Source: a virus. Taken from it: a stretch of 64,000 nucleotides of DNA. The DNA lies in IMG/VR virus record IMGVR_UViG_3300008107_000003, positions 62,001 through 126,000 of that record; one strand, given 5' to 3'. The notes beneath the pieces were generated by a model. It ran no database searches, was not told the DNA's origin, and was given only the letters and a program-made list of their open reading frames with translations. A program made the translations under genes and the position numbers. Positions 16,865 through 62,700 of the stretch are shown in pieces. Position 1 is the stretch's first letter. Each line of letters begins with the position of its first letter.

Positions 16865-16872
16865 TATTTATA
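16865..16872 (-). promoter_or_regulatory. late promoter TATAAATA of hsp20
   Basis: A perfect late element on the minus strand 59 nt before the hsp20 ATG. It is divergent from, and only 1 nt away from, the plus-strand late element at 16874-16881. Confidence 0.8.
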
Positions 16873-16873
16873 G

Positions 16874-16881
16874 CATAAATA
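16874..16881 (+). promoter_or_regulatory. late promoter CATAAATA of plus-strand island
   Basis: A 7/8 match to TATAAATA on the plus strand, 40 nt before the first gene of the island. No sigma70-type promoter is visible in this intergenic region, so the island is probably late-expressed. Confidence 0.75.
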
Positions 16882-16920
16882 CCTCAGGTCGTCATTTAAA
16901 CATTTTAGGAGAAACCGAAC

Positions 16921-17388
16921 ATGAAAAAGGTAATCACCGCACTTGCGGCATCCTTTTTCGTTATGCCTTCGTCATTCGCAGCTGAAATTACTTCGAGAAT
17001 TACTGATTCAGTACAGTTGGGTGTGCAGGGTGCAGCAGTTCAATCAACGAGAATTGGGGCTTCATATTCTGCCTCAGGTACAAATATTCAAGCAACTTCA
17101 TTTGGTGGAGTTGGTGGTGCTGGAACTTATGATATCAATACAGCAGGTCAAGCATTTACTTTCTCAGAAAGTTTCAATGCTGCTGATGCTATCGTAACAG
17201 ATCAAACAGTTACAAGTGGTGTTATTGGAACTCCAAATCTTTATGGAGATAGTGTTACTCAGTTAGCAGGAGACAAAGGTTCTCTCGCTGGTACTCTATC
17301 TGCTACTGGTGTTCCCACTATAACTGCTGGTGGTGCTGGAACTACAGGAACAGCACAACGTAGTATCGAATTGAGCGTATTCAAATGA
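16921..17388 (+). CDS. secreted Gly/Thr/Ser-rich protein with signal peptide
   Basis: A 155-residue protein beginning with a clear Sec signal peptide (MKKVITALAASFFVMPSSFA, cleavage expected near residue 20-21). The mature part is low in charge, rich in G, T, S, A and V, and predicted beta. It ends RSIELSVFK. The following gene encodes a shorter protein with the same plan (signal peptide, SGTNI/TGTNI, FxFSE, closing xSISVF/xIELSVF), so they look like paralogues. AGGAG lies upstream. It opens the plus-strand late operon and probably acts in the host periplasm or outer surface; no enzyme motif is seen. Confidence 0.8.
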   Translation: MKKVITALAASFFVMPSSFAAEITSRITDSVQLGVQGAAVQSTRIGASYSASGTNIQATSFGGVGGAGTYDINTAGQAFTFSESFNAADAIVTDQTVTSGVIGTPNLYGDSVTQLAGDKGSLAGTLSATGVPTITAGGAGTTGTAQRSIELSVFK

Positions 17389-17750
17389 GACATTTAACTC
17401 CCGTTTTGCTTTTGGCAACGGGAGTCATTTGTACTCCTACATATGCTGAAAGTGTTGTGCCTAATTTTACAAGAGGCACTATCAATGCAACTACAGAATC
17501 AACTACAAAAATTGTAGAAACTATTCGTCAAGTTGAATATACAACTGGCACGTCTTATACTGTCACTGGAACTAATATTAATATTCCTGGCACTCCTCAA
17601 CAAGGAGCAAATTATACCATCATGCAACAAGGTGCTCCATTCCAGTTCAGTGAAACTTATCTCGGACCTGGAGTGGCAAAAGAAACATGGATAGATCGCA
17701 CCACAGAAACTCAATCAACAACTACATCTATATCTGTATTTACGCAGTAG
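17385..17750 (+). CDS. secreted protein, paralogue-like of preceding gene
   Basis: A 121-residue protein with an N-terminal signal peptide (hydrophobic TPVLLLATGVICTP, cleavage likely after TYA at about 21). A Thr/Ser-rich beta-type mature part contains YTVTGTNINIPG, APFQFSETYLGPG and the end TTSISVF. Its ATG overlaps the previous stop (ATGA). A strong 9-bp hairpin (17397-17425) lies over codons 5-14 and could affect translation or mRNA stability. Its relation to the previous protein suggests a two-component surface or periplasmic structure. Confidence 0.8.
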   Translation: MRHLTPVLLLATGVICTPTYAESVVPNFTRGTINATTESTTKIVETIRQVEYTTGTSYTVTGTNINIPGTPQQGANYTIMQQGAPFQFSETYLGPGVAKETWIDRTTETQSTTTSISVFTQ

Positions 17751-18289
17751 GTCTTTATGTATCGCCTGTGCTGGCTCAAACAGCTCCTAGTAATACTAAT
17801 ATTGCTGGGCCTAGTGCTTCTGCTACAGGAAACGTTACAAACCAAGCGGTACAAGTCCTCCAGGGGCCATACGCCGTCAATACGTATGGTGGTGGAGTTA
17901 GTTGCCAGGGACCGACGATGAGTTTATCCCCCTTCGTATTAGGGAGTATTAATAGTAGTCAAGACCCAGAAACATTTCAATCTCAGAATGGAAATGCTGG
18001 TATCAGTATGGGATTTAACTTTCCTTTAGATGGAAGTTTAACAGAATTATGTAAGGAAAGAGCAAGAACAGAAATAAGAAGACAGAATGCAGAAACAGAT
18101 AAAGCACGTTTAGATTTTGAATTAGTAAGACTTCTTAAATGTGGTGAAGCAATTAAATCTGGAATTACATTTCATCCAGACAGTCCATATGCAAAAATTT
18201 GCTCTGACGTTGTTGTTAGGTATCCAACACCAACTATTGTAACAAATCCACAAAAACCAGATACTAAAATAAATAAGGCAGATAAGTAA
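17687..18289 (+). CDS. secreted protein with four cysteines
   Basis: A 200-residue protein. The only ATG of the frame before the hydrophobic stretch is at 17687, giving a polar lead, a hydrophobic segment (IYICIYAVGLYVSPV) and a likely signal cleavage after VLAQ near residue 31. The mature part has a Ser/Gly region, then a helical charged region (LCKERARTEIRRQNAETDKA, about 118-137), and four Cys (CQGP, LCKE, KCGE, ICSD) that could form disulphides in the periplasm. Its first 64 nt overlap the previous gene in another frame. No family is recognised. Confidence 0.75.
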   Translation: MDRSHHRNSINNYIYICIYAVGLYVSPVLAQTAPSNTNIAGPSASATGNVTNQAVQVLQGPYAVNTYGGGVSCQGPTMSLSPFVLGSINSSQDPETFQSQNGNAGISMGFNFPLDGSLTELCKERARTEIRRQNAETDKARLDFELVRLLKCGEAIKSGITFHPDSPYAKICSDVVVRYPTPTIVTNPQKPDTKINKADK

Positions 18290-18296
18290 TTCTACT

Positions 18297-18428
18297 GTGC
18301 GATATGTATCAGTCATGCTTCTTAAGCATAACAAAAGAGTTGAATGGTATGACATTCCTTGGGGTAAATCCCATCTGGATGTTATTAGAAAACACGGTAT
18401 TATTCTTATGACTATTGTACATGAATAA
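18297..18428 (+). CDS. small protein (43 aa, GTG start)
   Basis: A 43-residue reading frame from GTG at 18297 (37 residues if the internal ATG at 18315 is used). It has a basic/aromatic middle (KRVEWYDIPWGKSHLDVIRKHG) and a hydrophobic end. It fills the space between two well-supported genes and ends 12 nt before the next ATG. It has no good ribosome binding site, so the call relies on packing. Confidence 0.5.
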   Translation: MRYVSVMLLKHNKRVEWYDIPWGKSHLDVIRKHGIILMTIVHE

Positions 18429-18440
18429 GGAGATATTCAA

Positions 18441-18584
18441 ATGTATGTACTCTCAGAAAAAGACATCAATCGTCTAATCATCTTATGTGCTGAGAAATCA
18501 GCAACTACAACTGACAAGAGTGCCAAACAAGAATATCAACATCTCGTTAATAAATTGAAAAATTATAAAGATCAAAATCTATGA
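18441..18584 (+). CDS. small charged helical protein (47 aa)
   Basis: ATG at 18441 with GGAG 10 nt upstream, TGA at 18582. The 47-residue product is a soluble helical protein (MYVLSEKDINRLIILCAEK...). Its stop overlaps the ATG of the next gene, which supports it being translated. The function is unknown. Confidence 0.7.
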   Translation: MYVLSEKDINRLIILCAEKSATTTDKSAKQEYQHLVNKLKNYKDQNL

Positions 18585-18751
18585 GACATTTGGTAGTAGA
18601 AATCTTAACAAATACTGTATGTTTAGGGATCTTAAGTGGTGCTTTGATTATACTACCGATTATTGGTATCGCAAAAATTCATGAGCCACCGAATGGAAAA
18701 AATACATCCCGAACGTCTGGTAACACAGAAAGAATGCCAGGAGATGATTGA
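18581..18751 (+). CDS. small single-pass membrane protein (56 aa)
   Basis: Starts in an ATGA overlap at 18581. A hydrophobic helix covers about residues 9-31, followed by a polar Pro/Asn/Thr-rich tail. It overlaps the next gene by about 70 nt in another frame. Its function is unknown; an inner-membrane location is expected. Confidence 0.6.
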   Translation: MRHLVVEILTNTVCLGILSGALIILPIIGIAKIHEPPNGKNTSRTSGNTERMPGDD

Positions 18752-18899
18752 TGCTGCTATACGCAGACACAATCGGAATGCTTCCATTATTAGTATGTGT
18801 GTTGGTTGGGTGGTCCTTGCTTTATTTGCTGAAGGACTGTTGAGACTTATTGGTGTTATTCCTCCACTTCTACCATGGCTGAACATTACCCTGAAATAA
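18681..18899 (+). CDS. small membrane protein (72 aa)
   Basis: Read from the ATG at 18681 (MSHRMEKIHPERLV). A charged helical N-terminus (to about 37) is followed by a hydrophobic segment (about 38-60) rich in Leu/Val/Ile, then a short end. An in-frame TTG at 18663 and an ATG at 18693 are alternatives. It overlaps the gene before (about 70 nt) and after (25 nt), a compression typical of this block. Confidence 0.65.
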   Translation: MSHRMEKIHPERLVTQKECQEMIDAAIRRHNRNASIISMCVGWVVLALFAEGLLRLIGVIPPLLPWLNITLK

Positions 18900-19054
18900 T
18901 AGGAATTGTTTTCTTGCTAGTATTTGCTGCCACCATGTTCTATCAAGGAACATGCATCATAAGGGGGCAACGTGGATATTCTCTTCGAGATTATCTCAAA
19001 CAGGATAGTGATAATATGCGTAAACGAATAGAGGAACTACTCAAGGACAAATGA
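18875..19054 (+). CDS. small membrane protein with charged tail (59 aa)
   Basis: ATG at 18875 to TGA at 19052. One N-terminal membrane helix (about residues 8-24) is followed by a cytoplasmic-type charged tail (DYLKQDSDNMRKRIEELLKDK) predicted helical. Its stop overlaps the next ATG (ATGATC). It resembles other one-helix proteins of the island; the function is unknown. Confidence 0.7.
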   Translation: MAEHYPEIIGIVFLLVFAATMFYQGTCIIRGQRGYSLRDYLKQDSDNMRKRIEELLKDK

Positions 19055-19158
19055 TCATCTTAACAGAAGAGGATTTAAAAGAATTGCAAGAAAGAGTTTT
19101 TCAACAGAAAATGGATGAACTCTTTGAAGAACCATCTACCTATGAGGATGACGAATGA
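19051..19158 (+). CDS. tiny acidic protein (35 aa)
   Basis: A 35-residue acidic helical peptide (MIILTEEDLKELQERVFQQ...EDDE). It starts inside the previous stop (19051) and ends in an ATGA overlap with the metallopeptidase-like gene at 19155. The two exact overlaps are the main evidence that it is translated. Confidence 0.6.
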   Translation: MIILTEEDLKELQERVFQQKMDELFEEPSTYEDDE

Positions 19159-19886
19159 GAAAATTAATTGCATCTACATGTTTAGCATTGTCTATTTCCA
19201 TGCCAGTTATAGGAGAGACAATTAGAATTGAGGAACCTAAAGTAAAATACCATAGTTACGAATCTTTAGGGTGTGTAATTTTATTAGAGTGTACTACTGG
19301 TGTTGAACGTGCAACAGTAAATTACGATTATGGTGTCCTACAATCTGAACATCTAAATGAAATTAAAGAAATTATTACTGCACTAGATAATTTAAATGTT
19401 GAAGTATATATTGCAGATGAAAAATATTTTCCATTTAATACTAATGGAATTTATAAACCAAAATACAATCGTTTTATCATTCGTAGAGATTTATTAGAAA
19501 ATAGAATTGAATTTATTAGTACGTTAAGACATGAAGGTTGGCATGTTGTTCAAGATGCAATGGCTGGAGGAGTAGACAATCCTTTCATTGCTCAAGTACA
19601 TCAAGATAATGAAATACCAGATGTCATCAGAATGAGAACTTCATTAGTTTATGGGGCGGCAGGGCAAAATGCTGGAATAGATTGGGAAACGGATGCTAAC
19701 TGGGCAGAATTGCAACCAGGAAAAACTGCAAAGTATTTAAAAATGGCATCGGTCAAACCTCTATGGGAACAAATAGAACCAACTCCAATGACTAAAGAAT
19801 GGTTAATTGGATGTGGTTATATGCCTCCTACAGATAATTATAAATTGTATTCCAATAAAAAATATTGTAAAGAAGGTGGAATTTAA
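19155..19886 (+). CDS. secreted HExxH metallopeptidase-like protein
   Basis: A 243-residue protein with a signal peptide (about 1-20, cleavage near VIGE). Residues 122-136 read STLRHEGWHVVQDAM; HEGWH at 126-130 is a zinc-binding HExxH motif with the catalytic Glu. A third ligand is plausibly in the DWETDANWAELQPG region (about 176-190), which would make a gluzincin- or aspzincin-like site. Four Cys are present, two near residue 40-46 and two near the end. Expected to be exported and to cut a periplasmic or envelope protein of the host, perhaps at lysis. The substrate is unknown. Confidence 0.75.
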   Translation: MRKLIASTCLALSISMPVIGETIRIEEPKVKYHSYESLGCVILLECTTGVERATVNYDYGVLQSEHLNEIKEIITALDNLNVEVYIADEKYFPFNTNGIYKPKYNRFIIRRDLLENRIEFISTLRHEGWHVVQDAMAGGVDNPFIAQVHQDNEIPDVIRMRTSLVYGAAGQNAGIDWETDANWAELQPGKTAKYLKMASVKPLWEQIEPTPMTKEWLIGCGYMPPTDNYKLYSNKKYCKEGGI

Positions 19887-19888
19887 TC

Positions 19889-19981
19889 ATGAAAAGAGAT
19901 ATTATAGTTTCATCTTTAGTATACTTTAGTATTATGGGTTTATGGATATGGTGGGGTCTCACACATGCATATCCTTCCTAA
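19889..19981 (+). CDS. tiny membrane peptide (30 aa)
   Basis: ATG at 19889, 2 nt after the previous stop. The 30-residue hydrophobic peptide is rich in Trp and Tyr (LVYFSIMGLWIWWGL). It is likely a membrane insert. The call depends on position and hydrophobicity only. Confidence 0.45.
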   Translation: MKRDIIVSSLVYFSIMGLWIWWGLTHAYPS

Positions 19982-20017
19982 AATAGGATGCTAAATAATC
20001 CCATATGGAGATTATAT

Positions 20018-20338
20018 ATGCTATCTACGCAATATCGTCTTCGTCTTGAAACAATTTGCCAAAAAATTGTTAGACACGAAGAGGTAGGTTTGGAAGATAT
20101 GATCTGGGCAGAAAAACTTGCAAAAGTAAATCGTACTGCAGGTACAATGCTCAGACAGGCAAGAAGAACAGCAGAAAATCCTAATATGCAGGAAGGAGAC
20201 CTAGACGATTTTTTAAATCAACTTGATATTGGAGGTACTGGTCATGAACGTTTTGGAAAACGTGGTTTCAATGACATTGATGATATGATCGATTGGTTCA
20301 CTCAAGATAAACCTAATGATTGGAGGCAACGTGACTAA
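20018..20338 (+). CDS. helical phage protein (106 aa)
   Basis: Start at 20018 (MLSTQYRLRLETIC) because GGAG lies 8 nt upstream; the ATG 30 nt earlier lacks one. It is a soluble helical protein, basic in the first half (AKVNRTAGTMLRQARRTA) and acidic in the second (EGDLDDFLNQLD, FNDIDDMIDWF). Its TAA shares one base with the next ATG. The pattern could fit a nucleic-acid-associated or adaptor protein, but no family is recognised. Confidence 0.75.
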   Translation: MLSTQYRLRLETICQKIVRHEEVGLEDMIWAEKLAKVNRTAGTMLRQARRTAENPNMQEGDLDDFLNQLDIGGTGHERFGKRGFNDIDDMIDWFTQDKPNDWRQRD

Positions 20339-20514
20339 TGGACATTGAAGCACAAAACGAAAAATGGAACAGAGGTCTTGATCTGTTCATTGAAAGTGTA
20401 TATAAGCCAGATAATGAATTAAGACAAGATGCACATGATCAAAAGTGTTATAATGAACTTATGGGTATTCGTTGGCATGTTCTAGAGTATCTTCAAACAT
20501 TAAGAAAGCATTAA
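20338..20514 (+). CDS. small helical protein (58 aa)
   Basis: A 58-residue helical, charged protein (MDIEAQNEKWNRGLDLFIES...) beginning in a TAATG junction with the previous gene. It has a single Cys and no membrane segment. It is followed by a 76-nt gap with a late-type element. The function is unknown. Confidence 0.65.
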   Translation: MDIEAQNEKWNRGLDLFIESVYKPDNELRQDAHDQKCYNELMGIRWHVLEYLQTLRKH

Positions 20515-20543
20515 TTTGGTATCAAACTTTACAGTGATGCTTG

Positions 20544-20551
20544 AATAAATA
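20544..20551 (+). promoter_or_regulatory. probable internal late promoter AATAAATA
   Basis: A match to NATAAATA on the plus strand in the only sizeable gap of the island, 40 nt before the ATG at 20591. A GGGG/CCCC hairpin lies between it and the gene. Confidence 0.5.
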
Positions 20552-20590
20552 CAGATAACGGGGTATACTAATCCCCTATCGTTCATCCTA

Positions 20591-20812
20591 ATGTCTAAAG
20601 CACTTCTGCTTTTGGCATGGATACCCTTTCTGATCTTTCCCTATCATGCAGATCCAAGCACTACTCAGTATGTTAAAGTGACTTGTGATCATGCATGGGT
20701 ATTGATGGACATCGTTAAAAATAACGATACTATCTCATGGAAACAGAAAGATCCTTTGCTATTAGACCTCCGAGAGGAAGTCATTAGTGAGTGTAATAGA
20801 CACTATCAATAG
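20591..20812 (+). CDS. small exported or membrane-anchored protein (73 aa)
   Basis: A 73-residue protein with an N-terminal hydrophobic segment (MSKALLLLAWIPFLIFPYHA), either a signal peptide or an anchor. A soluble part with two Cys (VTCDHAW, SECNRHY) follows, which could pair in the periplasm. It overlaps no start of good quality downstream. The function is unknown. Confidence 0.65.
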   Translation: MSKALLLLAWIPFLIFPYHADPSTTQYVKVTCDHAWVLMDIVKNNDTISWKQKDPLLLDLREEVISECNRHYQ

Positions 20813-20849
20813 GACGGAAGTAAGCCAACTCGGAACGGAACGTTCATCT

Positions 20850-21002
20850 ATGGAAGCACTCATTCTAACTTGTCTTCAGGCACAATTGATTGCAGGAAGA
20901 GTTTATAAGCAAGATATTCCGAAACAAGCGAAGCTTGAATTAATTTCGGAATTGAAACTCATCTCACCTAGAGAGTGCAAGATAGACGCAAAAGTTGACT
21001 GA
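20850..21002 (+). CDS. small protein with two cysteines (50 aa)
   Basis: Read from the ATG at 20850 (MEALILTCLQAQL); a GTG start at 20787 would lengthen it by 21 residues through the end of the previous gene. It has a hydrophobic N-terminus, then a Lys/Glu helix, with Cys in LTCLQ and PRECK. It is probably exported or membrane-associated like its neighbours, but the evidence is thin. Confidence 0.5.
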   Translation: MEALILTCLQAQLIAGRVYKQDIPKQAKLELISELKLISPRECKIDAKVD

Positions 21003-21040
21003 AGGAACGCTCTTTAGCCTAAAAATTAAGGAGAACCCTA

Positions 21041-21205
21041 ATGTCAATCGCAACATACCGTGGGTGCAAGTACAACACTAACACCCCTAAGCAAGAATAT
21101 CAACACTGGTATTCTGAAACTCATGCCCCATCCCATCCACAGAATGTATATCGTGGTCATGCATATCGTCCATGCAACAACTGGAATTGGGAGGAAGGTA
21201 AATGA
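21041..21205 (+). CDS. DUF4278-like small protein
   Basis: A 54-residue protein with two copies of the YRG-x-x-Y pattern (TYRGCKY near residue 5 and VYRGHAY near 37). This is the hallmark of the cyanobacterial DUF4278 family, whose function is unknown. AAGGAG lies 8 nt upstream of the ATG at 21041. Its stop overlaps the next ATG. The family is largely cyanobacterial, which supports a cyanobacterial host. Confidence 0.65.
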   Translation: MSIATYRGCKYNTNTPKQEYQHWYSETHAPSHPQNVYRGHAYRPCNNWNWEEGK

Positions 21206-21288
21206 ATTGGTTAAATATTATCCGTAAACAAATTCTCAAAGAGAGAAAACTCCAAGAGGCACAATATTATATTGCCACTCTTGGTTAA
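21202..21288 (+). CDS. tiny basic peptide (28 aa)
   Basis: A 28-residue basic amphipathic peptide (MNWLNIIRKQILKERKLQ...) starting in an ATGA overlap. It ends where the convergent minus-strand gene ends, the two stops overlapping by 4 nt. No terminator is visible between the two converging units. Confidence 0.45.
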   Translation: MNWLNIIRKQILKERKLQEAQYYIATLG

Positions 21289-22175
21289 AATGATAATCTT
21301 GCTGAGAGTTTCTTAGCAATCTTTTTCGCAGGGGCAAACAGAGGTTTAAATCTCTTTTGCCCTTCTTTTGTAAATTTGTCAGAGATAATATCATCCACAA
21401 TAATTTTATTCTCTACTTCGTAAAGTGGATTAATATCAACTTGGTCTCTGAGATACTGCTCTACATTATCAATCGTATCGAGGAGTTTAGTTCCTTCCGA
21501 AGAGTATTGGAAAACGTCAACCTTACCACTATCAGTTAGAACATAGTGCAGTACAGGTTTGACTTGTTTGATTTTAATTTTAAACTTATTCTTTGCTGCT
21601 TCTCTAATCAACGGTTCTGCTGCGTTCTTAAGAGTATTAAAAACCATCGTTGATCCGATCGTGGCAGCAGTCGTAACGATTGCTACAGACCCCGCTGTAG
21701 CGATCATAGAGGGGTCTGGGAGGTCCACCTTGACCCCTGCGATGGTGATGCTAGGGTTCTCTGCTGGGATCTCTGCCTTGGTCACTGGAGGGGTCTGCTG
21801 GAGTGCCTGGATCTGTGGAGGCAGTTCTGGTTTAGCATCAGGTAACCCTCTGGTCTTATCCTGCTGTTGCTGTTGTTCTTTTTCTCTTTCTGCTTTTACG
21901 GCTGCATCAAATTCTTCCTGTGTAGGTACATTAATCACAGGATATTTGATTGAGGTATCTGGATTATCAAATACAGGTAAAGCAAGTCCCCGAGAAACAG
22001 GGACTTGCATCTGTTCTATTACAGGAGGATCAAGCCTCTGTATCAGCGTACCTTGAGGGTTCGGTATCCGCTGCTGCTGCAACGGGGGTATCGAAGACAG
22101 GTTGGACTGCTGGTTCGGCAGGGACTGGAGTTGGTTCGACTGCAGTGGTTGCAGGAACGGAATCTGGTTTGGCAT
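21285..22175 (-). CDS. Pro/Gln-rich protein with central membrane segment (296 aa)
   Basis: N-terminal residues 1-140 are Pro/Gln-rich and probably disordered, with a run of five Q near 100. A hydrophobic Ala/Thr/Val segment follows at about 158-180. A mixed alpha/beta C-terminal domain (about 190-296) has a basic end. The first 146 nt overlap the end of the preceding gene in another frame. The alternative start at 22010 (residue 56) would remove the overlap but has no ribosome binding site. Similar proteins in T4-like cyanophages are uncharacterised; a virion or membrane-associated role is possible. Confidence 0.7.
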   Translation of the reverse strand: MPNQIPFLQPLQSNQLQSLPNQQSNLSSIPPLQQQRIPNPQGTLIQRLDPPVIEQMQVPVSRGLALPVFDNPDTSIKYPVINVPTQEEFDAAVKAEREKEQQQQQDKTRGLPDAKPELPPQIQALQQTPPVTKAEIPAENPSITIAGVKVDLPDPSMIATAGSVAIVTTAATIGSTMVFNTLKNAAEPLIREAAKNKFKIKIKQVKPVLHYVLTDSGKVDVFQYSSEGTKLLDTIDNVEQYLRDQVDINPLYEVENKIIVDDIISDKFTKEGQKRFKPLFAPAKKIAKKLSARLSF

Positions 22176-22344
22176 CGTCCTTCTTCTCGTCCTTCTTCAA
22201 AGTATCAACACCGAAAGTAGCGGCTGCTGCAGTGAAGACTGTAGCAATAAAGGTTGGGTCCATCTTTGATAATAGACCAGCATAACTAGCTGTAAGTAGT
22301 GCAGCACTCCAACTCAAAACTGAAATTCTAACGATTGTGCTCAT
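22030..22344 (-). CDS. small membrane protein with Ala/Pro tail (104 aa)
   Basis: Start at 22344 (MSTIVRISVLSWSAALL), preceded by AAGGA; the upstream frame extension is rejected. Two hydrophobic stretches at about 4-22 and 29-48 may form a helical hairpin. A Lys/Asp cluster (KKDEKKDDAK) and an Ala/Pro/Val tail follow. A holin-like topology is conceivable but not diagnostic. Transcription can start at the late element 22404-22411 just upstream. Confidence 0.7.
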   Translation of the reverse strand: MSTIVRISVLSWSAALLTASYAGLLSKMDPTFIATVFTAAAATFGVDTLKKDEKKDDAKPDSVPATTAVEPTPVPAEPAVQPVFDTPVAAAADTEPSRYADTEA

Positions 22345-22379
22345 ACATCTTTCCTTTTTCTGAGTTTCCATCGTTCTAA

Positions 22380-22405
22380 AAAATTAGAGGGGTATGTCCC
22401 CTCTA
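22380..22405 (-). terminator. terminator of the clamp-loader/regA operon
   Basis: On the minus strand a stem of 8 bp (22405-22398 with 22392-22385, 5-nt loop) is followed by AATTTTTT, 4 nt after the regA stop. Its first arm lies upstream of the predicted +1 of the overlapping late promoter. Confidence 0.8.
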
Positions 22406-22411
22406 TTTATC
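22404..22411 (-). promoter_or_regulatory. late promoter GATAAATA overlapping terminator
   Basis: A 7/8 match overlapping the regA stop codon. Initiation near 22397 would start inside the terminator loop. Late transcripts of the membrane-protein gene would therefore escape the terminator that stops the early operon. Confidence 0.6.
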
Positions 22412-46301: not shown

Positions 46302-46367
46302 TAAAAGTCCTACCAGAATTGGTGAACTTATTATATAGGTGGATATTGTATCTGTCAGCTACCAATA

Positions 46368-59751: not shown

Positions 59752-62700
59752 TTACGTTGCTAAAGCAATACATCTTAAACTTTCAATAATTGGTACAATA
59801 GCTTGGTTCTTACTCTTCATAATAATTTTTACCTGGAAAGCGGTAAATGCATCACCAGAGAAAGTATATTCATAAGATTTGAACTGAACAGTCTCTGTCG
59901 GAATCACAGTTTTATCTGGATTGCCAGTATTATTAAATAATTTATAACCAATTTGATCTTCTGGAGTAGTAGATCCAGCTGGAATTACTTTATATAATAC
60001 TTTAATGTCTGCATCTGGATGTCTCCAAGCATCAAACATTACCTTGAGAGATTTAGATTGAATTGTCAATCTTGCCAATCTAGTAATATATATGGCTGCA
60101 TTTGGATCACCAACTGCAAGAGTTGCGGTTGAATCAGTCGTTAAATTATTAATTCTATTAGAAGTTGTAATACAACTTAGTCTATCTAAGTCAATAATTG
60201 GAGATAGATATTCACTCTCAGATTGCATAATTGTTTGAATTAACAATGACTTAGCACCATTATTTCTTGCGTTTTCATTAACTTTTGATGCAATCAAGTA
60301 TTGCTTATCCAAATAATTTGAAGTATTTAATTCTACATCAAATAATGTTCCGTCATTAACAAAAGAATTTGTTAGAACAGTTACTCCGTCATTAATTGAA
60401 GTACCAGTGACAGCATTTAATCTAGATGAAATAGTTGTCTTTGGTACAATTGCTGTCTGAATTTGAGGTGTTATTACTTCAAATGGTACGTTTTGAGTTG
60501 CATAAATTTGTGTGGAACCTCCAGTAATGCCATTAATACCTACTGAATTTGTAACTAAATCATAAGAATCTAAAGTTGGAGCACTAATTTCAGTGTGTGT
60601 TTTATTAATCTCTGTTAGTGGAATACCATCTAAATTATAACACTCAACTACAGTTCCTTGTTCATGTGCAACAGCAATTGTATTTGCAGCTGCTCTACCT
60701 CCAGTCTTAATTGTGATTGTTGTGCCATCAGCACTAATAGCAGAATATTGTAAAATTTCATTTTCAATTTTAATATATCCTGGATTACTTTCACTGATAG
60801 ATAATCCAGCAACTGTTTTGTGGAATGCACTTGCATCAACTACAGACAAAGTAGTATCAGTTGAACTAATACCAGTTTTTAATGAAGTTGGTGAAATTTC
60901 GGAAATCGCTCCAGAAATGGTCACATTATTTAAAGTATCATGCATACCATGATTGCTATGTGCTATAGTAATTTTCCTACTATATGCTGGATAAGATGGA
61001 GCGACGCTAACATAAGCCGTTCTAGTATCACCAGCATATGTTGGTGTTCCACTAATTGTTCCTGATGCAGCGGATGGTGACGCCTGACTAATAGTTTCAG
61101 ATGCAGTCCAAGTTGCATTAGTTGCAGTGCTATTTGCTCCCAAATATCTAACAACAAGTGTTCTTGTTCCTGCTGTCCAAGATACAACTTCAGCAATCAA
61201 TCCACTTGTACCACCAGTTATTGTAGCCCCAGCAACAAAAGTTCCTGTTAAACCAGCAGAATTCAATACTATAGTAGATGTTGCAGAACTACTACGAATT
61301 GCATACGTTAATGGTGATCCAGTACCTTGGTTAAATGCCCCAACAATATCAGTTACTACTAATTGATTTGGTGTTGTAGTATTATTAAATTCTTTAATGG
61401 TTGCTTGAGCAGCAGCATTACCAACTTGCCTAATTGTAGCACCAGGAGTAAATGTTAAACCTGTAGTATTCAATACTAAAATTTGTTCTGGTTTATAGGT
61501 CTTAATTGCATTCTCTTTAAGATTGAGAATTTGATTGTTGCCAATTCCAAGTTCTGCATTATTAAAGATTGCCGTTCCTTGTGATTTTGTAAATTTAGCT
61601 CTATAGATATTAAACTTCAAGTCTTCATATTGATCAGCAGTCCACGTTGTTGCGTTCTGAGATTTAAATAGAACACCAGCATATGGCTGTTCAGAAATAG
61701 TTCTACTACCACTGATATCGATATCTCCCATTCTAGAAATCCATACTCTATATTCATTACTATCAGATAACAATACTAAAGAATATTCTACCCCTTTTTG
61801 CAAATAAATTGGAGCTTTAAATCTGAAAGTAGTTGCTAGGGAAGCATTTTCAGAAATTTGAACATCTGATGGATAAATGGTAACATCGGAGAATGGTAAA
61901 ATTTTATTGGATGGATAACCATTTACCATGGTACGAATTTGGCAACTGATAGGAATATTATTATCTCTAGTTGCAAAATATATTTCTGCTTTAGTTACAT
62001 ATACTCCATCATCTTTATCTACTAGGAATGATTGTGCTAATGGATCATACCATCCAATTTGTCTAACTTCAGTTCTCGTTGATGTGATAGTTCTTGTATC
62101 AGTTACTGTATCCCTGACAATATCAGCATTTCTAACAGCAAGAATATTTTCTTGTACCGTATCTAAAGTTCCAGAAGCACTATAAGTTGTATCTGCGGAA
62201 GAATCTACAGTTCCAGGAACGTAACTATTAACTGAACTTGTTGTAAATCTGAGAGCTCTAGTTCCCGTTGGCCATCTTGGATTAGTATCTACAGATGGAC
62301 TTGGAATAAAGAAAGTTCCATATAATGTCCCCTTTCTATCACTAATTAATCTTCTATCCTTTACAACTGCTTTAGCACCAGAGGAACCTTGTAAAATTTC
62401 ACCTACTTTAATATTTCCATAGAAGTTTGCATTGACTTGAGTTGCCATTGCTTCAGTATCAATATTTAAATATGCAGTTTGAGATGAATATGTTGAAGGC
62501 AATGTACTATCATCATAAGGACTATATACATAACCATCATTTGGTGCCACAACTTTTAATTTTACTCCACTAGATAATCCAGTTACAGTCTCACCAATAC
62601 TAAATGGAATATCATTTGTTCTTGGATCGGTTGCAGCATTTTTAATTAATTCAATTAATTTAGGAGTGCAATATTGTTCGATTGAATTTTCATCAAAGAA

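Follow-up and report, generated by a model that had tools for sequence, protein, structure and literature searches.

A plus-strand block of exported and membrane protein genes in a cyanophage genome as part of a proposed late envelope module with a possible role in lysis

The hsp20-regA locus considered here lies within a 64-kb window (the whole stretch of DNA that was analysed; positions 62,001 to 126,000 of the 176,692-base virus record IMGVR_UViG_3300008107_000003) and contains a block of short plus-strand genes at 16921-21288, followed by the minus-strand genes 234 and 218 (Table 1). Matches to this region came from cyanophages only, and the nearest homologs of its DUF6322 protein belong to T4-like cyanophages (Kyanoviridae) from freshwater or estuaries. 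Of the 57 non-overlapping open reading frames (ORFs) of at least 90 amino acids in the window, 51 are on the minus strand; five of the plus-strand ORFs fall within 16921-21288 and the remaining one stands isolated at 46339. The block, comprising 17 small ORFs, is thus the sole run of plus-strand genes within the window, as stated in the original prediction, which was made from the sequence alone and counted about sixteen short genes. Signal peptides and hydrophobic segments were judged by sequence composition. An n-region, an h-region and an AxA-type site were recognized in the products of 16921, 17385, 17687 and 19155, in agreement with the earlier claim of at least four signal peptides, and the product of 20591, with a signal-like N-terminus and without a clear AxA site, is a possible fifth exported protein. 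Strong hydrophobic segments occur in the products of 18581, 18663, 18875 and 19889, as expected from the several single-helix membrane proteins proposed previously. Homologs beyond a near-identical relative (L083) were found for all block ORFs except 20591-20812, and comparison with relatives gave ratios of non-synonymous to synonymous substitution rates (dN/dS) of 0.03-0.35 in almost every informative pair; the higher values of three pairs derive from few changes, and a stop codon occurs in one relative of ORF 20787. Because dN/dS is well below 1 in almost all informative pairs, almost all of the block ORFs are considered to be genuine genes under purifying selection.

Table 1. Features of the hsp20-regA locus in window coordinates.
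Feature	Position	Strand	Remarks
Late-type promoter CATAAATA at 16874	16869..16885	+	47 bp upstream of gene 237; overlaps divergent TATAAATA of hsp20
Gene 237 (T4-GC237, phrog_564)	16921..17388	+	Predicted exported; distant paralog of 236
Gene 236 (T4-GC236, phrog_650, PF19847 DUF6322)	17385..17750	+	Predicted exported; predicted long beta strands
Gene 235 (T4-GC235, phrog_848)	17687..18289	+	Predicted exported; conserved Cys; start overlaps 236 in -1 frame
Cargo, six small ORFs (18297, 18441, 18581, 18663/18693, 18875, 19051)	18297..19158	+	Three strongly hydrophobic; phrog_1184/1096/1953
Exported HExxH...WExxA protein (phrog_591)	19155..19886	+	Predicted zinc metallopeptidase
Cargo ORFs 19889 (hydrophobic), 19988/20018 (phrog_507), 20338	19889..20514	+	
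Second late-type promoter AATAAATA	20544..20551	+	47 bp upstream of ORF 20591
Cargo ORFs 20591 (signal-like N-terminus), 20787 (phrog_504), 21041, 21202	20591..21288	+	
Terminator-like stem-loop with T run	21299..21319	+	At block's end; weak, fold z-score -0.8
Gene 234 (T4-GC234)	21285..22175	-	Pro-rich N-terminal part, predicted membrane helix near residue 157, basic C-terminal part
Gene 218 (T4-GC218, PF20048 DUF6450)	22030..22371	-	Two predicted membrane helices, charged C-terminal tail; candidate holin
Late-type promoter GATAAATA	22404..22411	-	40 bp upstream of gene 218

The gene order at the locus is hsp20 (minus), 237, 236 and 235 (plus), the remainder of the block, then 234, 218 and regA (minus), which matches the position of a previously described cassette, in which the hypothetical genes T4-GC 218, 219, 234, 235 and 237 cluster together in 15 of the 16 cyanomyoviruses compared. 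In the accessible part of that paper no function is given for the cluster, clustering for functional reasons and mobility are proposed and nothing more, and T7-like phages, linkage to lysozyme and host copies are not mentioned (Sullivan et al., 2010; PMC3037559). The claim that the block has no recognized counterpart in T4 is correct for T4 itself, but the cyanophage cluster had already been reported. The window shares with the 2010 cassette the gene families, the locus and the character of a cluster of hypothetical proteins, and differs from it in lacking both the 'plasmid stability' gene 414 and 219, neither of which had a profile match in the window, and in carrying 3 kb of cargo that includes an HExxH gene (PMC3037559). 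The 'plasmid stability / Phd-like antitoxin' label of T4-GC414 is itself doubtful; the S-SM1 protein matches no toxin-antitoxin family of Pfam and has a membrane helix at its N-terminus.

Across 81 loci that contain gene 235 with at least 3 kb on each side, 235 is accompanied by 236 in 81/81, by 234 in 80/81 and by 218 in 75/81, and the order 237-236-235 is kept among relatives, where a random order without conservation of the signal-peptide genes would have spoken against a dedicated system. Profile searches further showed 234, 218, 236 and 235 in the T7-like cyanopodoviruses KBS-P-1A, NATL2A-133, SS120-1, P-SCSP1n and P-SSP7. Four of these (KBS-P-1A, NATL2A-133, SS120-1 and P-SSP7) have the order 234-218-236-235 between the tail-fibre genes and the small terminase gene; P-SCSP1n differs in that 234 is convergent, and its run adjoins the large terminase gene. 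The T7 holin 17.5 and Rz spanin 18.5 are encoded at this same genome position, between tail-fibre and terminase genes. S-TIM5, a myovirus outside the Kyanoviridae, has 235, 236, 237 and 218; next to its 235 lie 234 and a weak match to hsp20, and in a tree of 235 the phage falls among marine T4-like sequences. Judged by these comparisons, the functional module is predicted to consist of 237-236-235 on the plus strand together with 234 and 218 on the minus strand.

Among the exported proteins, 236 scored 50.8 against Pfam DUF6322 (PF19847), above the curated cut-off of 30.6, and 237 scored 15.1, below it, yet the 237 and 236 profiles align with each other. An AlphaFold model of 236 contains two strands of about 25 residues each (predicted local distance difference test, pLDDT, 80) in an uncertain overall arrangement (predicted template modelling score, pTM, 0.34), and structure searches with this model returned cyanophage homologs and weak hairpin matches only. 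A resemblance to pore-forming toxins was discarded as evidence, since the template modelling (TM) scores were below 0.35, the pTM is 0.34 and any long beta hairpin would match. Cysteines are conserved in the 235 protein, for which a model of low confidence (pLDDT 56), too poor for structure search, predicts a helix of 43 residues. Freshwater members of 235 have a conserved ATG start; in marine T4-like and T7-like members the signal sequence is Arg-rich and encoded in the -1 frame over the end of 236. No ATG, GTG or TTG lies within 40 codons of this Arg-rich signal sequence in 119/127 marine and podoviral 235 sequences, the remaining cases being four with a start at 21-40 codons and four that are truncated. 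The missing starts raised the possibility of a -1 frameshift from 236 into 235, to which synonymous-site profiles and charge pattern gave no support. No lipobox was found in the sequences of 235, 236, 237 and their homologs.

On the minus arm, marine members of 234 carry cysteines within the Pro-rich part, which suggests that this part may be periplasmic. The 218 protein matches DUF6450 (PF20048) with a score of 64.6 against a cut-off of 25, and two hydrophobic segments are present in 158/158 distinct 218 sequences. In 48 freshwater T4-like contigs, representing 37 distinct 218 proteins, a phage lysozyme gene (PF00959, E 6e-22) immediately precedes 218 in the same orientation; over 52 loci the gap has a median of 7 bp, reaching about 2 kb in a few, and the usual order of the minus arm in these phages is C39 peptidase - phage lysozyme - 218 - HExxH. 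Besides hliP and psbA, the annotators of P-SSP7 designated just 234, 218 and 236 as membrane or exported proteins, and a hydrophobicity scan found 218 to be the sole small protein with two segments. Like class II holins of the T7 gp17.5 type, 218 is small, with two predicted membrane helices, a charged C-terminal tail and the corresponding position in T7-like genomes, and like the members of holin-endolysin cassettes it adjoins a phage lysozyme in the freshwater T4-like relatives. It differs from class II holins in matching no named holin family and in not standing beside an endolysin in the window's phage. We therefore regard 218 as a candidate holin, this activity being a hypothesis drawn from topology and gene neighbourhood.

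The claim that the block has its own late promoter also held. An exact NATAAATA element lies 47 bp ahead of its first gene, and across relatives the motif occurs 31-47 bp upstream of gene 237 in 39/89 distinct upstream regions, compared with 0/88, 0/96, 0/90 and 0/42 for 236, 235, 234 and the HExxH gene, respectively. As the motif precedes 237 across relatives and never these other genes, the comparison supports a conserved late-type promoter for a predicted 237-236-235 operon. Over the whole window NATAAATA is not enriched (25 observed, 30 expected), and sigma-70-like matches are at chance level (17 vs 19.8), so that they speak neither for nor against the earlier claim that the block lacks an early promoter. 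None of the accessible transcriptome texts mentions these genes by name.

The remainder of the block appears to have a different character. In S-ShM2 the plus and minus arms touch, whereas in the window 3 kb of small ORFs and the HExxH gene lie between them, and in S-H38 the same insertion point holds genes for a transaldolase, PTOX, dehydrogenases and plastocyanin. Because the arms touch in S-ShM2 and metabolic genes occupy the site in S-H38, 18297-21288 is read as variable cargo at an insertion point between the two halves of the module. In the original prediction the island was considered envelope-targeting or lysis-related; this fits the comparison, but treating all sixteen genes as one unit was wrong, given that most of them (18297-21288) are cargo. 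The exported HExxH protein that it mentioned belongs to this cargo. Residues H126-E127-x-x-H130 and W177-E178-x-x-A181 are invariant in ten sequences, so that the HExxH motif and downstream glutamate ligand expected of zincins (H126, E127, H130 and E178) are present throughout, and the window protein has no above-cut-off match to a curated peptidase family. Both motifs are kept in homologs, including Syn5 gp14 (phrog_16003), which likewise has a signal-like N-terminus and RHExWHxxQ and WExxA motifs, and differs from the window protein in length (149 vs 243 amino acids) and in its location just before the RNA polymerase gene. In S-CREM1, which is close in core genes, only three small ORFs lie between hsp20 and regA, and an annotated glnA RNA (L324, 7342-7440) is found there, where relatives have the module.

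From the composition of the module's proteins we infer both their export and their membrane topology. Taken together with the comparisons above, the block is interpreted as one arm of a two-operon late envelope module of picocyanobacterial phages, for which breaching of the envelope at lysis is the most likely function, a reading to which we give about an even chance of being right. It is hypothesized that 237, 236 and 235 would be made from the late promoter and exported through Sec to the periplasm or outer membrane, and that 218, as a class-II-like holin with two membrane helices, would allow an endolysin encoded elsewhere in the genome to reach the peptidoglycan. The one-helix protein 234, its Pro-rich arm probably in the periplasm, would act with 235, 236 and 237 at the periplasm/outer-membrane stage, the step performed by spanins in coliphages; the exported HExxH protein may have an accessory role in cleaving envelope proteins, and the remaining small ORFs would be variable cargo between the arms. 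Among the cyanophage loci examined, whether T4-like or T7-like, none has a named holin or spanin. Similarity to spanins (Rz/Rz1; T7 18.5/18.7) is seen in the overlapping envelope-protein genes 236 and 235 in the same region of T7-like genomes and in the Pro-rich arm and membrane helix of 234.

Several observations weigh against a function in lysis. Unlike spanins, the candidates have no lipobox and no periplasmic coiled coil of the i-spanin type was seen in them, and 235 and 236 carry signal-peptidase-I-like sites instead. The 218 members tested gave no match to named holins of Pfam, PHROGs or NCBIfam. The adjacency of lysozyme and 218 is confined to one phage lineage; the window's phage itself encodes its endolysin, a lysozyme homolog, at genome 57.7-58.4 kb, some 26 kb away from 218, and in the isolates DSL-LC02 and DSL-LC03 other genes separate the two. 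In the complete records of S-PM2, Syn5, P-SS2, S-SZBM1 and S-CREM2, profile searches gave no match to 235 or 236 (234 was not searched for), and none to 218 in S-PM2, Syn5, P-SS2 and S-SZBM1; S-CREM2 has a 64-amino acid 218-like protein standing alone (E 1e-8). As the module is absent from these five phages, bar the 218-like protein, solutions other than the module exist in cyanophages. Regarding the loci just named, DSL-LC03 has a large protein annotated as autotransporter-like, without a Pfam match, between the minus arm and lysozyme (L118, 10581-12230), and DSL-LC02 encodes a large hypothetical protein at the equivalent position (L323, 11717-13576). In Syn5, gp47 (L316, 36392-36652; 86 amino acids), in which a charged stretch comes after a hydrophobic segment at the N-terminus, is encoded where other cyanopodoviruses have the module and is a candidate alternative lysis protein.

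The strongest argument against lethality of the exported set comes from bacterial chromosomes. A scan of 400 genomes of the picocyanobacterial family with the 235 profile gave matches in 11, five of them on phage-like contigs, three beside chromosomal genes and the other three as distant single relatives. In three freshwater Synechococcus-type genomes, 237-236-235 stands beside genes that read as NAD kinase, NdhE and a CYTH-type protein; 234 is also seen on two of these three contigs, and 218 has no match anywhere in the three genomes. Between the Synechococcus genomes dN/dS is 0.05-0.09 for 235 and 236, 0.35 for 237 and 0 for the tail of 234, and the 235 tree places the chromosomal copies together with sequences of freshwater T4-like phages. 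This grouping makes capture from phage likelier than an origin as a host auxiliary metabolic gene, the tree being no proof of direction. Because chromosomal copies are kept under purifying selection without 218, the exported set is probably not lethal on its own and may serve the cell; that 237-236-235-234 are tolerated and useful there is a poor fit with lethal lysis effectors. A bestrophin-like membrane protein and a 105-amino acid exported protein are encoded upstream of 237, beside the bacterial 237-236-235 genes (L275, L276 and L277). Around a distant 235 relative on a 2.66-Mb picocyanobacterial contig (G107; L308, 4775-9426), several exported proteins of 150-260 amino acids are encoded, possibly a cellular cousin of the module.

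The same chromosomal copies favour an alternative, in which 218 is the holin and 237-236-235-234 form a separate secreted or surface structure that remodels the envelope, for example by excluding later phages or preventing re-adsorption of progeny to debris, and that bacteria keep as protection. The two long strands in the 236 model, which may belong to an oligomeric or fibrous beta protein, are in keeping with this proposal. The promoter is of the late type, whereas exclusion genes are usually needed early, and in the T7-like phages the four genes, including 218, form one tight run at the lysis-gene position; we consider this alternative a tentative one, appreciably less likely than breaching of the envelope at lysis. 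The role of 234-237 may thus be either in the outer-envelope step of lysis or in envelope remodelling and exclusion.

An auxiliary role in periplasmic physiology during infection, such as nutrient capture or a response to envelope stress in the manner of phage PstS or PhoA, is suggested by the presence of pstS and phoA just past hsp20 in S-SM1 and of photosynthesis genes adjoining the module in freshwater phages; the lack of similarity to transport or stress proteins, and the strict linkage to two membrane proteins and, in one lineage, to endolysins, make it improbable. Slighter still is the chance that the genes encode virion components or assembly factors, as their location after the tail-fibre genes in podoviruses, the late-type promoter and a weak Foldseek match of 236 to a phage tail protein (TM 0.32) might indicate, given their Sec-type signal peptides and their absence from the S-SM1 virion proteins named in the main text of the source, as far as accessible; the virion proteomes of S-SZBM1 and S-CREM2 are uninformative here, 235 and 236 having been found in neither phage.

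Returning to lysis, a more specific proposal, put forward with clear reservation, is that a DUF6450 holin, the exported set and a Pro-rich tether (234-235-236, with 237 in myoviruses) may constitute a lysis module of three phage groups that replaces spanins, the non-holin part of which has been domesticated by freshwater Synechococcus. Relative to the 2010 cluster, the sharing among T4-like phages, T7-like phages and S-TIM5, the adjacency of 218 and lysozyme, and the Synechococcus copies are new here; these genes may already have been the subject of an earlier proposal. Much of the carbon in the ocean's picocyanobacteria is set free when cyanophages lyse their hosts. For this process, the shared module and its lysozyme-linked holin candidate provide a concrete gene list, together with possible roles for DUF6322 and DUF6450, and part of this phage envelope module has been retained by bacteria.

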